A stretch of DNA of 7,612 bases, taken from positions 3,481,063 through 3,488,674 of the forward strand of contig CP070672.1 in the NCBI GenBank assembly GCA_020351895.1, in the 5' to 3' direction. Positions 4,030 through 7,338 of the stretch are shown here, piece by piece. Source of the stretch: Thermoplasmata archaeon. GTDB lineage: Archaea > Thermoplasmatota > Thermoplasmata > GCA-020350865. The notes beneath the pieces were generated by a model. That model searched no databases. It saw only the letters and a list, made by a program, of their open reading frames with translations, and was not told the DNA's origin. Numbering within the stretch: position 1 is the stretch's first letter; each line of letters begins with the position of its first letter. The position numbers were made by a program, and so were the translations under genes.

Positions 4030-5640
4030 CTAAAACCTCACAGGCTCCTTAAACTCCCCGAAGACCTCCCGAAATACATTCGATATCTCCCCAACTGTAG
4101 CATAACTTTTTACAGCCTCTATTATGAAAGGCATGAGGTTTTCATCTGTATTTGCAGCTTCCTTCAATTTTTCGAGTTTCTTTTGAACCTCTTCATCTTT
4201 CCGTTCCTCTTTGACCCTGTTTAACCTTTTTATCTGTTCTTCCGCTTGTTTTGGATCATAATCGTGGAATTCTATGTTCCGCTCTTCCTCCTCAATCCGG
4301 TATTTGTTGACTCCCACCTTGATCTCCTCACCTGATTGTATTCTATTTTCATGAATATAGGCCTGCTTGGAGACTTCGCTTTGAATGTATCCCTCGGATA
4401 TTGCCTTTACGATACCTCCCGAATCTTCCACTTTTTCCATGCAATTGATAATCCTATCCTCCATCTCATTTGTCAGAGACTCAACATAATAGGAACCAGC
4501 CAAGGGATCCACAGTGTCGGTGAGACCCATTTCTTCAATCAGAATCTGCATGGTCCTAAGAGATATCAAAGCAGCTTTCTTGGAGGGACTCGTATATGCC
4601 TCATCATAAGAACAAAGAGCCATGGTTTGTGTGCCCGAAAGTGCAGATATCAGAGCATAATACGCACCACGAACGATATTATTTTCGGGCTGCTCGATTG
4701 TAAGGCCTCCTCCCCCTCCACCTGCGATCATCTTCATCATCATGGACTTTGGATTCTTGGCTCTGAAATCCTCCTTGATAATCCTTGCCCACAACCTCCT
4801 TGCGGCCCTGAACTTCGCTACCTGCTCGAACAGATTGCCGTGAATATCGAAGTTGAATGAGAATCTTGGAACGAACTCATCAACATCAAGCCCCCTGTCC
4901 TGAACATGCTTGATATAGGCTTTGGCTATCTCGAAAGCATAGGCGATTTCCTGTACAGGATCTGCTCCTGATTCCCGGATATGGTAGCCACATACAGAAA
5001 CTGGATAGTACTTTGGAATATACTTCGTGCAGTATTCGATTGTATCCCCAATGAGGCGAATCGAGGGCTCTACAGGGAATATCCATGTTCCTCTTCCAAT
5101 GTATTCCTTTAAAATGTCGTTCTGGGCGGTTCCCCGAATCTCCTTTGGATCAACCCCCTGTTTTTCGGCAACAGCGATGTACATTGCCATTAAAATGGAT
5201 GCTGTGGAATTTATTGTCAGGGAGGTGCTTATCTTGTCAATAGGTATACCCTCAAAAGCATCCTCCATGTCCTTTAGGGTGTCAACCGACATTCCAACTC
5301 TACCAACTTCACCTTCAGCCAATGGATCATCGGAATCAAGACCCATCTGTGTTGGTAGGTCAAAGGCCACATTCAATCCTGTTTGGCCCTGTTCGATTAA
5401 GTATTTGAACCTTTTATTGGTCTCCAATGCCGTGGCAAAACCCGAGTACTGTCTCATGGTCCAGGGCCTTGCTCTATACATGAACTTATGAATACCTCTT
5501 GTAAATGGATAATCTCCTGGTGCTCCTATTTTCTCCTCGTATCCTATATCTTTCACATCAGAGGGTGTGTAGATCGGTTTAACCTTTATTCCGGACTCCA
5601 AAACCACATCCATTGGTTCCGCTTTTTTGGATCTGTTCAT
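4030..5640 (-). CDS. Methylmalonyl-CoA-mutase-type enzyme, large (catalytic) subunit, divergent active site
   Basis: The 536-aa protein matches the separate large subunit of two-part, B12-dependent acyl-CoA mutases and lacks a B12 domain of its own. Family landmarks: PFTRG (45-49), RPWTMRQYSGF (58-68), AFDLPTQMGLDSDDP (92-106), GTAQNDILKEY (170-180), CGYHIRESGA (217-226), PRFSF (258-262), TVDPLAGSYYVE (376-387), GVNKYR (443-448). By the numbering I recall for the Propionibacterium enzyme, Y65, Q173, R183, Y219, H220, R259, S261 and E347 match Y89, Q197, R207, Y243, H244, R283, S285 and E370. Keeping Y65 and R183 favours a carboxylated acyl-CoA over isobutyryl-CoA. However, T77, H328, Q330 and N366 become F53, I305, G307 and C343, and residues 307-312 are six glycines. 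Its ATG overlaps the stop of the B12 subunit by 4 bases and follows a strong SD. Fold certain; substrate uncertain. Confidence 0.92.
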   Translation of the reverse strand: MNRSKKAEPMDVVLESGIKVKPIYTPSDVKDIGYEEKIGAPGDYPFTRGIHKFMYRARPWTMRQYSGFATALETNKRFKYLIEQGQTGLNVAFDLPTQMGLDSDDPLAEGEVGRVGMSVDTLKDMEDAFEGIPIDKISTSLTINSTASILMAMYIAVAEKQGVDPKEIRGTAQNDILKEYIGRGTWIFPVEPSIRLIGDTIEYCTKYIPKYYPVSVCGYHIRESGADPVQEIAYAFEIAKAYIKHVQDRGLDVDEFVPRFSFNFDIHGNLFEQVAKFRAARRLWARIIKEDFRAKNPKSMMMKMIAGGGGGGLTIEQPENNIVRGAYYALISALSGTQTMALCSYDEAYTSPSKKAALISLRTMQILIEEMGLTDTVDPLAGSYYVESLTNEMEDRIINCMEKVEDSGGIVKAISEGYIQSEVSKQAYIHENRIQSGEEIKVGVNKYRIEEEERNIEFHDYDPKQAEEQIKRLNRVKEERKDEEVQKKLEKLKEAANTDENLMPFIIEAVKSYATVGEISNVFREVFGEFKEPVRF

Positions 5641-6089
5641 GATACTCCCTCCGCTTTCTTTTTGATGAAATTCACGATATCTTCGAAATTTGAGCCTGTG
5701 GGATAGACCGCTTCCACCCCCAGTTTGTTTAGGCTATCAAAGTCCTTTTTTGGAATGTTTCCACCCACTATCACAGTTATATCCCTGGCACCTTCCTCCT
5801 CTAATTTCTTCATCAATTTCTCTGCAATTGGAATATGGGCACCCGAAAGAATGCTCAATCCAATGAAATCCACATCTTCCTGGATAGCAGCCTCAACGAT
5901 CTGCTCTATAGTTTGATGTAAACCAGTATAGATCACCTCGAAACCCGCATTTCTCAGGGCATGTGCCACGACTTTTGCACCCCTGTCATGGCCGTCCAGA
6001 CCAGGCTTTGCCACAAGGATTCTAATTGGTCTTTTTTCCAAGTTCTCAAACCCCCCTAAATTTCTTATGAATTTTATAGGTGTACTCAA
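5637..6089 (-). CDS. B12-binding small subunit of acyl-CoA mutase
   Basis: This 150-aa protein is a stand-alone cobalamin-binding domain. It has the base-off B12 signature LDGHDRG (31-37) with H34 as cobalt ligand, then GLSILSGAH (77-85) with the S-x-L element, and the VGG turn (108-110) near the cofactor tail. It pairs with the large subunit encoded directly downstream; in this family the two bind adenosylcobalamin at their interface. The start is taken as TTG at 6089, whose TTGA overlaps the TGA of the thiolase gene and suggests translational coupling. No good SD precedes it. A second TTG at codon 17, after a GGGGGG run, is a weaker alternative. The N-terminal segment (residues 1-20) is typical of small subunits that contact the catalytic partner. 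Confidence 0.93.
   Translation of the reverse strand: MSTPIKFIRNLGGFENLEKRPIRILVAKPGLDGHDRGAKVVAHALRNAGFEVIYTGLHQTIEQIVEAAIQEDVDFIGLSILSGAHIPIAEKLMKKLEEEGARDITVIVGGNIPKKDFDSLNKLGVEAVYPTGSNFEDIVNFIKKKAEGVS
5645..5652 (-). promoter_or_regulatory. Strong ribosome binding site of the mutase large subunit
   Basis: The minus strand reads GGAGGGAG four bases before the ATG at 5640, inside the last codons of the small-subunit gene. It supports this start and independent re-initiation at the ATGA overlap. Confidence 0.7.
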
Positions 6090-7294
6090 TCAACAGTAAC
6101 TTTCAATACCAAAGCAGCAGCTGTGTCACCTGCAGCACAACCATCAAACAATCCATATCCTCCACCCAAAAGTACAAGCTCTTCGATTAACTCGATTATC
6201 AACCTTGCCCCTGTGGGGCCCTGTGGATGACCGTATATCAGGGAGCAACCGTAGTTGTTCATATCTCTTGTTTCTATTCCCATTTCGCGGGAGAAATATA
6301 TATCGTTCACTGCAAATGGATTATGGGTTTTGATGGTCTTACAATCCTCAATTGCGATACCTGCCCTGTCCAAAGCCTTCTTTCCCGCAGGAATAATTGC
6401 CTGGGCCATGTAGCCTTTTTTCGCCCTTCCATCCCCATAGGACACGATTTTGATCTCTATATTATCTTTCGTTGCGAGTTTCTTTGCATTCTTCTGCGTG
6501 GTCACGATTATACCCGCATTTCCATCGGCTGGATAGGTCTGAGTACCAAAGGTCACTGTTCCATCTGGAAGAACAGGCCTTAATTTAGCAAGGCCCTCAG
6601 CTGTTGTTGGAAAAATTCCTTCATCACCTTTTACTGTGGCCAATACTTTCTTTCCTCTGCTGTCCTTTATTTCAATTGGAACCACCATGAATATCTTCTG
6701 GAATTTTGCATCATCTTTTAGGGATTCCTGATACTGGTTGTACCTCAAGAACGTTAATTCGTCCTGCTCCTCCTTTGTAATTCCACTTTCTTTTGCTACG
6801 TTCTCGGCAGTCTCAATCATGGCGTTCTTGGCAAATGGATCGTAGCCAAAGTTGTCCCATACCCAGTCCTCAGAGTCGGGTTTAGCCCCAGGGGCAAGCG
6901 AATTTGGATAGACGAGATGCGGTCCGTTTGAGGTTCTATCACAGCAAACAACCAGAACCGATTTATTGACACCACTTTCTATTCCCAGTGTAGCCAATCC
7001 CACTGAGTTTGCAGATGTGGCGCAGGCCTGGCCAACAAGGGGTCCTGTAATATCAGTAGCACCTATCATTCCCGCCACCCATGGTGCCCCGTAGAAGCAG
7101 TGCGTCTGGGGTATCGTCATGCCAAGGATGATCCCATCGAACTCAGTGGGGGGAATTTTCCTTTCATCCAAAGCACGCTTGGCAATCTCGGCTGCGAACC
7201 TCATGGAATGCTGGTTTGCAAAGCTTCCCTGCCACCTGCAAAATGGTGTGCTCCAATACCCCCCATATGGAATGTAAGCCTCCCTAAAAGCCAT
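6086..7294 (-). CDS. Thiolase (acetyl-CoA C-acyltransferase family)
   Basis: Taken from ATG at 7294, because the minus-strand GGTGA at 7304-7300 is a good SD for it; a TTG four codons upstream would start within that site. The 402-aa product has the thiolase layout: nucleophile C91 in GQACATSAN, N325 in HNPFAVND (where classical enzymes have NEAF), H356 in YGHPQGPTGAR and the second cysteine C386 in FDGCAAGD. The family joins or cleaves CoA thioesters by Claisen chemistry. The C386 loop (CAAGD) replaces the usual C-x-GGG, and HNPF replaces NEAF, so it belongs to the thiolase/SCP-x-like branch rather than close FadA or AtoB types. It is first in the operon with the two mutase subunits and overlaps the small subunit by 4 bases. 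Length is normal. Whether it cleaves or condenses cannot be read from sequence. Confidence 0.88.
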   Translation of the reverse strand: MAFREAYIPYGGYWSTPFCRWQGSFANQHSMRFAAEIAKRALDERKIPPTEFDGIILGMTIPQTHCFYGAPWVAGMIGATDITGPLVGQACATSANSVGLATLGIESGVNKSVLVVCCDRTSNGPHLVYPNSLAPGAKPDSEDWVWDNFGYDPFAKNAMIETAENVAKESGITKEEQDELTFLRYNQYQESLKDDAKFQKIFMVVPIEIKDSRGKKVLATVKGDEGIFPTTAEGLAKLRPVLPDGTVTFGTQTYPADGNAGIIVTTQKNAKKLATKDNIEIKIVSYGDGRAKKGYMAQAIIPAGKKALDRAGIAIEDCKTIKTHNPFAVNDIYFSREMGIETRDMNNYGCSLIYGHPQGPTGARLIIELIEELVLLGGGYGLFDGCAAGDTAAALVLKVTVD

Positions 7295-7299
7295 TATCG

Positions 7300-7304
7300 T
7301 CACC
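7300..7304 (-). promoter_or_regulatory. Ribosome binding site deciding the thiolase start
   Basis: GGTGA on the minus strand, five bases before ATG 7294. It matches the 3' end of archaeal 16S rRNA and favours this ATG over the TTG at 7306. Confidence 0.6.
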
Positions 7305-7327
7305 AATCCCGATATTTACAAACTCCT

Positions 7328-7338
7328 ATTTATATTAG
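7328..7338 (-). promoter_or_regulatory. TATA-like box of the thiolase-mutase operon
   Basis: The minus strand reads CTAATATAAAT. About 25 bases downstream is position 7306, giving a leader of roughly 12 bases that holds the GGTGA site. No other promoter is evident inside the operon, whose genes overlap. Confidence 0.5.

Follow-up and report, generated by a model that had tools for sequence, protein, structure and literature searches.

A glycine-loop B12-dependent mutase from a Thermoplasmata archaeon, probably of the indoleacetate-pathway (IaaGH) kind

Introduction

Which substrate does a B12-dependent mutase act on when a loop of six glycines stands where methylmalonyl-CoA mutase (MCM) has its R-x-H-x-Q-T segment? 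The question is raised by a gene in a 7,612-nt stretch of DNA from a Thermoplasmata archaeon, analysed at its full length and called the window here. The first-pass annotation, made from the letters of the window, had read the gene as that of a working mutase with an altered pocket, which may mark a clade of its own whose acyl-CoA substrate is larger or different. We will consider the operon in which the gene lies, the active site that it encodes, the clade to which it belongs and the genes found beside its relatives.

The operon in the window

The minus strand carries a tightly packed operon in the order thiolase, B12-binding subunit and mutase large subunit (Table 1), in which the stop of the thiolase overlaps the start of the small subunit (TGA/TTG), and the stop of the small subunit overlaps the start of the mutase (TGA/ATG). 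The thiolase is listed from a TTG at 7306, though it more likely starts at the ATG at 7294. The TATA-like and GGTGA segments upstream of it are putative motifs. In the profile search, the mutase reached 668 bits with TIGR00641, the superfamily domain, whose cut-off is 303.8, and 549 bits with the MCM equivalog NF006944, a model with a cut-off of 876 that includes a fused B12 domain absent here. The small subunit scored 158.5 bits against TIGR00640 (cut-off 57.45) and has the DxHxxG motif of a separate B12-binding subunit as DGHDRG; the thiolase, with 187 bits, lies below the cut-off of TIGR01930 (240.55).

Two other genes were noted in the window. Positions 3-623 of the minus strand encode the N-terminal portion of a heterodisulfide reductase subunit of HdrA2 type, truncated where the window ends (NF040770, E 7e-87). 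On the plus strand, positions 1312-2619 encode a membrane protein in which acidic linkers separate three zinc ribbons of the CxxC-x9-CxxC type that are nearly identical repeats. No riboswitch or other RNA family reached the gathering threshold in the window.

Table 1. Features of the mutase operon and of the mutase active site, in window coordinates
Feature	Position	Strand	Basis
Mutase large (substrate-binding) subunit, 536 aa	4030..5640	-	TIGR00641; 4r3u is the best PDB relative; glycine-loop clade
B12-binding small subunit, 150 aa, DGHDRG at residues 32-37	5637..6089	-	TIGR00640, motif
Thiolase	6086..7306	-	TIGR01930, Thiolase_N/C; 55% to its counterpart in the Aromatoleum iaa operon
TATA-like TAATATAAATA (7337-7327) and GGTGA (7304-7300), upstream of the thiolase ATG 7294	7300..7337	-	sequence only
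K303-T314, KMIAGGGGGGLT, in place of R-x-H-x-Q-T; glycines 4705-4722	4699..4734	-	alignment
Residues 339-344, TMALCS in place of SLHTNS	4609..4626	-	alignment
Y65, equivalent of MCM Y89	5446..5448	-	alignment
R183, equivalent of MCM R207	5092..5094	-	alignment
H220, equivalent of MCM H244	4981..4983	-	alignment

The glycine loop and its partner segment

In phmmer searches of PDB sequences, the segment KMIAGGGGGGLT aligns without a gap to RTHSQTSGWSLT of the Propionibacterium freudenreichii MCM (1req, 386 bits, E 2.1e-114), and equally without a gap to RFHCQTAAATLT of 2-hydroxyisobutyryl-CoA mutase (HCM; 4r3u, the best match, with 506 bits and E 1.3e-150). The residue numbers of 1req are taken here as chain position plus one, an offset that we assume to give the literature numbering. 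Both alignments place I305 and G307 at the H328 and Q330 sites, as the first-pass annotation had proposed, and G308 at that of T331; Q330 is presumably a contact to the adenosyl/substrate region. A shifted register restoring the His and Gln, the objection raised along with that proposal, was not found in the PDB alignments and is rejected. The change of the active site is larger than the annotation had it: the loop stands, but a paired replacement had been missed, in which SLHTNS becomes TMALCS (H364 to A341, T365 to L342 and N366 to C343).

The window mutase thus lacks equivalents of three residues that define an MCM, since H328, Q330 and N366 have become I305, G307 and C343, and the Ile and Asp that define HCM at the Y89 and A116 sites are not found in it either (Y65 and A92, the latter being MCM-like vs the Asp of HCM). 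It keeps the equivalents of Y89, R207, Q197, H244, Q361 and E370; that Y65, R183 and H220 are intact had already been noted, correctly, and they correspond to Y89, R207 and H244. Such kept catalytic residues, in an intact operon, fit what would be a working enzyme rather than a decayed gene, again in line with the annotation. The six loop glycines, read from 4722 to 4705, are encoded by GGT GGA GGG GGA GGA GGC, codons too varied for a one-codon repeat.

Conservation of the loop and the mutase clade

When 8000 candidates were scored, MIAGGGGGGL was found in 120 of the 120 homologues among the matches listed (71-94% identity). Few of these carry source names, which are Thermoplasmata, Aminicenantes or "bacterium", and the databases call them methylmalonyl-CoA mutase. 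This conservation, together with the varied glycine codons, excludes a decayed gene, a frame or read error, or chance as the origin of the loop.

The best 80 loci from GTDB species genomes comprise 38 with a glycine-rich loop and 42 with H-x-Q. Loop variants among the 38 include MIAAGGGGGL, MIAGGGGSGL and MIAGGGGAGL, as well as GLFGGGGSGL (Desulfobacterota), GLFAGGGSGL (L031) and LIGGGGSAF (Rokubacteria). The partner segment reads ALC in 36 of them and ALP in two Rokubacteria (L027, L032); SLHTN is found in 41 of the 42 H-x-Q loci, the remaining one (L045) having SLAACS. In an alignment of 54 glycine-loop and 31 other rows, the discriminating columns include, in the loop, I305 (80% of glycine-loop rows), G307 (85%) and G308 (100%), and, in the partner segment, A341 and L342 (both 100%) and C343 (96%); N90 (S114), C217 (S241), N263 (F287) and T339 (S362) are among the clean discriminating columns. 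A glycine-rich loop joined to an xALC partner segment, both present in the window mutase, is a mark defined here and not a published definition.

The tree of 85 rows (LG+C20+F+G4, quick search; L036 left out for its in-frame stop) puts the 54 glycine-loop rows on one side of a branch with an SH-aLRT of 100, and 28 of its 82 inner branches are open. This clade contains the window mutase, which groups with P0001, P0013, P0022 and P0045, and both Aromatoleum iaa mutases described below, which sit among Pseudomonadota. The loop change is not a peculiarity of the window gene but the mark of an existing family, one with an operon already described in Aromatoleum aromaticum (PMC8360864).

Some mutases met in this survey deserve mention in their own right. 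The glycine-loop frame of L036 has an in-frame stop near its N-terminus, either a read error or a broken gene. L045 and L087, from one genome (G005) with 10 mutase matches, combine a canonical H-x-Q with SLAACS for SLHTNS. An odd mutase, L090 (genome G004), has RFGVVCGGSSLV plus SIFTCAYDEA; its branch is long and falls, with weak support, next to the glycine-loop clade. A group of archaeal mutases (L112-L116, L120, L122) have TMRMFSGFGT, with a Phe at the Y89 site, together with AHIRIIRD or a close variant, and are possibly of the isobutyryl- or hydroxyacyl-CoA type. The viral collection gave one mutase match, of canonical type, and in the plasmid collection 428 records matched, none of them reaching 60% identity, with five among the matches listed.

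The link to the indoleacetate operon

Clustering of the genes that neighbour glycine-loop loci yielded one recurring set. By HMM, it consists of HyuA/HyuB-like proteins (caprolactamase, acetophenone carboxylase), a three-subunit Mo-hydroxylase (4-hydroxybenzoyl-CoA reductase, xanthine dehydrogenase-like), a family III CoA-transferase, an acyl-CoA dehydrogenase, a phenylacetate-CoA-ligase-like protein, MeaB, thiolases and a pyruvate/indolepyruvate-oxidoreductase-like pair; the Mo-hydroxylase we take to be a step of the indoleacetate pathway. The set matches the iaa operon as given in PMC8360864. There, the anaerobic indoleacetate operon of Aromatoleum aromaticum encodes IaaL, the B12 mutase IaaGH, which is a phenylsuccinyl-CoA/benzylmalonyl-CoA mutase, and IaaF, a benzylmalonyl-CoA dehydrogenase that also decarboxylates and that reads GGG at the site of the YEG found in most acyl-CoA dehydrogenases. 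The paper also mentions Ferroglobus placidus as having iaa clusters, and a Thermoplasmatales sequence with IaaF. No report of an assay of IaaGH itself was found in the parts of the literature searched.

The Aromatoleum operon was located via the iaaF primers published in PMC8360864. The forward primer is present in 2 of the 297 genomes of the family searched, and in each of the two both primers mark one ORF. The first of these genomes (G405) has the order GntR, thiolase, ligase, HyuA, HyuB, IaaF, B12 subunit, mutase, Mo-FAD, Mo-FeS, Mo-L and CoA-transferase, and its iaa mutase carries the loop LRMIAAGGGGGLT with TMALCS, as does that of the other (G581).

We then counted six core genes (HyuA, HyuB, the three Mo-hydroxylase subunits and the CoA-transferase) around the best 80 loci, by tblastn with one reference set at a 40% identity cut, the references coming mostly from glycine-loop loci themselves. 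At least one core gene adjoins 37 of the 38 glycine-loop loci vs none of the 42 canonical ones, and at least three adjoin 29 of 38 vs none of 42, over stretches of similar mean length (16.0 and 15.9 kb); Fisher's test gives p 4e-22, a value that ignores relatedness and depends on references taken mostly from glycine-loop loci. The exception is L036, whose HyuA lies at about the 40% cut. An IaaF-type dehydrogenase with GGG adjoins 26 of the 38 glycine-loop loci, two others (L033, L040) have only a distant YEG-type dehydrogenase, and tblastn found none in the remaining ten; the three IaaF-type matches in the 42 canonical loci read FEG and YEG, one not covering the site. Further loci gave GGG in 8 of 8 IaaF matches (L125-L128, L130, L131, L142, L146).

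These neighbours also bear on two readings in which the substrate would not be aromatic. The mutase might act on (1-methylalkyl)succinyl-CoA, in an anaerobic breakdown of alkanes that proceeds by fumarate addition, its loop accommodating an alkyl chain: that route has an analogous rearrangement of a substituted succinyl-CoA, and both pathways are named in PMC8360864. It needs a glycyl-radical synthase, however, and with Aromatoleum as positive control a PFL-like enzyme was found in just one (G778) of the 11 archaeal genomes discussed below, while the neighbours of glycine-loop mutases are of iaa type, and we regard this reading as very unlikely. An ordinary MCM with a tolerated loop change is likewise very unlikely, for although the Y89, R207, H244 and A116 equivalents are MCM-like and the homologues bear that name in databases, the equivalents of H328, Q330, T331, H364 and N366 have all given way to other residues, fixed in a separate clade, five glycine-loop genomes of the 300-genome archaeal sample have one or two additional mutase matches apiece (one of which, L088, is canonical), and methylmalonyl-CoA epimerase-like genes lie near 5 of 38 glycine-loop vs 25 of 42 canonical loci among the best 80, the former being adjoined by iaa genes instead.

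Archaeal genomes with the glycine-loop mutase

Apart from the mutase itself, the thiolase and the B12 subunit are the only iaa-type genes inside the window; IaaF, IaaL, HyuAB and the Mo-hydroxylase were not found within its 7,612 nt. Two overlapping archaeal samples gave 5 of 300 genomes (E 0) and 8 of 389 (E<=1e-230) with the mutase, 11 in all, and MIAGGGGGGLT and TMALCS occur together in all 11 mutases.

Their gene content allows one to weigh a third alternative, in which the enzyme would still be an aryl-succinyl-CoA mutase of the same mechanism, its substrate coming from an aromatic compound other than indoleacetate. In its favour, no match to the large subunit of the iaa Mo-hydroxylase was found at E<=1e-40 in eight of the 11 genomes (G001, G031, G082, G059, G165, G778, G605, G616), while HyuA-like genes occur in all 11 (two as partial matches) and an IaaF-type gene at E<=1e-80 in nine, GGG being read in six, with no match at that threshold in the other two. 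Against this, the Mo-hydroxylase is present in the three others (G604, G638, G666), the window has the gene order of G604, some of the archaeal genomes may be incomplete, and HyuAB would be expected only if a lactam must be opened, as in the oxindole route. We hold such a different input to be rather unlikely, and indoleacetate remains the preferred one.

In the Thermoplasmatota genome G604, the thiolase, B12 subunit and mutase follow the order of the window (L146, L181; thiolase 62%), with a GGG-type IaaF upstream; after the mutase come a CoA-transferase, a fusion protein resembling indolepyruvate oxidoreductase (at 363 bits, short of the cut-off), the Mo-hydroxylase, a hydratase/dehydrogenase and HyuAB. 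An archaeal operon variant (L127, L128, L130, L131, L144, L145) has four gene types before B12 subunit, mutase and CoA-transferase, namely a DUF35-like protein, an SDR, an HMG-CoA-synthase-like protein (OB domain) and an SCP2-type thiolase. We take this variant to resemble the bbs toluene operon.

The thiolase and its relatives

At E<=1e-40, the window thiolase matches a single place in G405, the Aromatoleum genome (55%, E 9e-146); this place lies inside the iaa operon, 5.7 kb before iaaF. Among the 11 archaeal genomes with the glycine-loop mutase, seven have no window-type thiolase at E<=1e-40, and in all seven an SCP2-type thiolase adjoins the mutase; no SCP2-type thiolase was found in the mutase stretch of the four genomes with the window type. 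A strict alternation of the two types is undercut by G778, G638 and G666, in which the window-type thiolase is not beside the mutase.

This thiolase is separated from the mutase in G778 and G638, where its neighbour is a hydratase/dehydrogenase. Relatives of about 70% adjoin a hydratase/dehydrogenase and ETF in G032 and G778 (L176, L179), the one in G032 belonging to a beta-oxidation/ETF cluster. Since the family is so placed in G778 and G638 and has such a relative in G032, it is wider than iaa. At another place in G032 (L175), a window-type thiolase (84%) adjoins a B12 subunit (74%), followed by unrelated-looking genes, and the mutase has no match in that stretch.

Proposed reaction and pocket

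A separate clade with a glycine loop, found in auxin-breakdown gene clusters, most likely rearranges a much bulkier aromatic molecule; the tree and the gene neighbourhoods thus speak for the separate clade and the larger acyl-CoA substrate that the annotation had suggested, and the likely substrate can be named as the aryl-succinyl-CoA of the iaa pathway. We consider it quite probable that the window holds an archaeal three-gene operon for an IaaGH-type AdoCbl-dependent aryl-succinyl-CoA mutase, which would most likely convert (2-aminophenyl)succinyl-CoA to (2-aminobenzyl)malonyl-CoA in anaerobic indoleacetate breakdown. The basis for this is the clade shared with the Aromatoleum iaa mutase, the conservation of the loop, the association with iaa-type genes and the kept catalytic residues; the chemistry and the pocket are what we infer from them. 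Against this reading stand the small gene set of the window, the archaeal relatives that gave no match to the Mo-hydroxylase (8 of 11), IaaF (2 of 11) or the window-type thiolase (7 of 11) at the thresholds given above, the wider spread of the thiolase family, and the glycine-loop loci with a YEG-type dehydrogenase or none.

In this rearrangement of an arylsuccinyl-CoA to a benzylmalonyl-CoA, the CO-SCoA group would leave the carbon that bears the aryl group and move to the CH2 next to the free carboxylate. Compared with methylmalonyl-CoA, the aryl ring would take the place of one hydrogen of the methyl carbon, which would be the very carbon that exchanges hydrogen with 5'-deoxyadenosine. The lost side chains (H328, Q330, T331, H364, N366) lie, we assume, on the adenosyl side of the pocket, and their loss would therefore enlarge the space there: glycine with Ile, Ala, Leu and Cys would plausibly form a larger, less polar recess for the ring. 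The Y89, R207 and H244 equivalents would continue to handle the carboxylate and the thioester, and the kept Arg and Tyr would suit a substrate with a free carboxylate. In IcmF, the adenosyl group juts into the substrate domain (PMC10481361). The product would then undergo oxidative decarboxylation by IaaF, beta-oxidation and cleavage by a thiolase.

More tentatively, and with some doubt, the glycine loop could be a general way for a radical B12 mutase to take a bulky ring on the carbon that exchanges hydrogen, a solution distributed across archaea and many phyla of bacteria, and Thermoplasmatota without a recognisable Mo-hydroxylase could use an undescribed source of aryl-succinate, in an unknown archaeal aromatic pathway.

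Comparison with known systems

No statement of the glycine-loop signature was found in the literature searched, nor one assigning MCM-named proteins of archaea and Aminicenantes to the IaaGH kind; since that literature covers a minority of the relevant journals, this is weak evidence of novelty. The glycine loop with xALC, set against H-x-Q with HTN, offers a simple sequence test to tell probable aryl-succinyl-CoA mutases from the MCMs after which they are named, by which anaerobic breakdown of auxin and tryptophan would become readable from the genomes of uncultured archaea and bacteria. The loop also hints at how, in nature, the pocket of a B12 mutase may be opened on its adenosyl side for bulky groups.

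MCM (1req; human 2xij) and the window mutase have the Y89, R207, Q197, H244, Q361 and E370 equivalents in common and differ at those of H328, Q330, T331, H364, N366, S114 and F287; moreover, the B12 domain is fused in these two MCMs, whereas the window has a separate subunit gene. HCM (4r3u) shares the two-subunit architecture, with 97% of the barrel aligned, but it has Ile and Asp at the sites of Y65 and A92 and Gln for R183, and it keeps H-x-Q and HTN. The closest system is IaaGH of Aromatoleum aromaticum (PMC8360864), which shares with the window the clade, TMALCS, a separate B12 subunit gene adjoining the mutase and an iaa-type thiolase. Its loop, MIAAGGGGGLT, has five glycines vs six in the window, the two mutases are 63.5% identical, one being pseudomonadotal and the other archaeal, and Aromatoleum has the whole iaa gene set where the window operon has three genes. 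The kind of enzyme is thus already known, though thinly studied, and the window protein is misnamed as an MCM.
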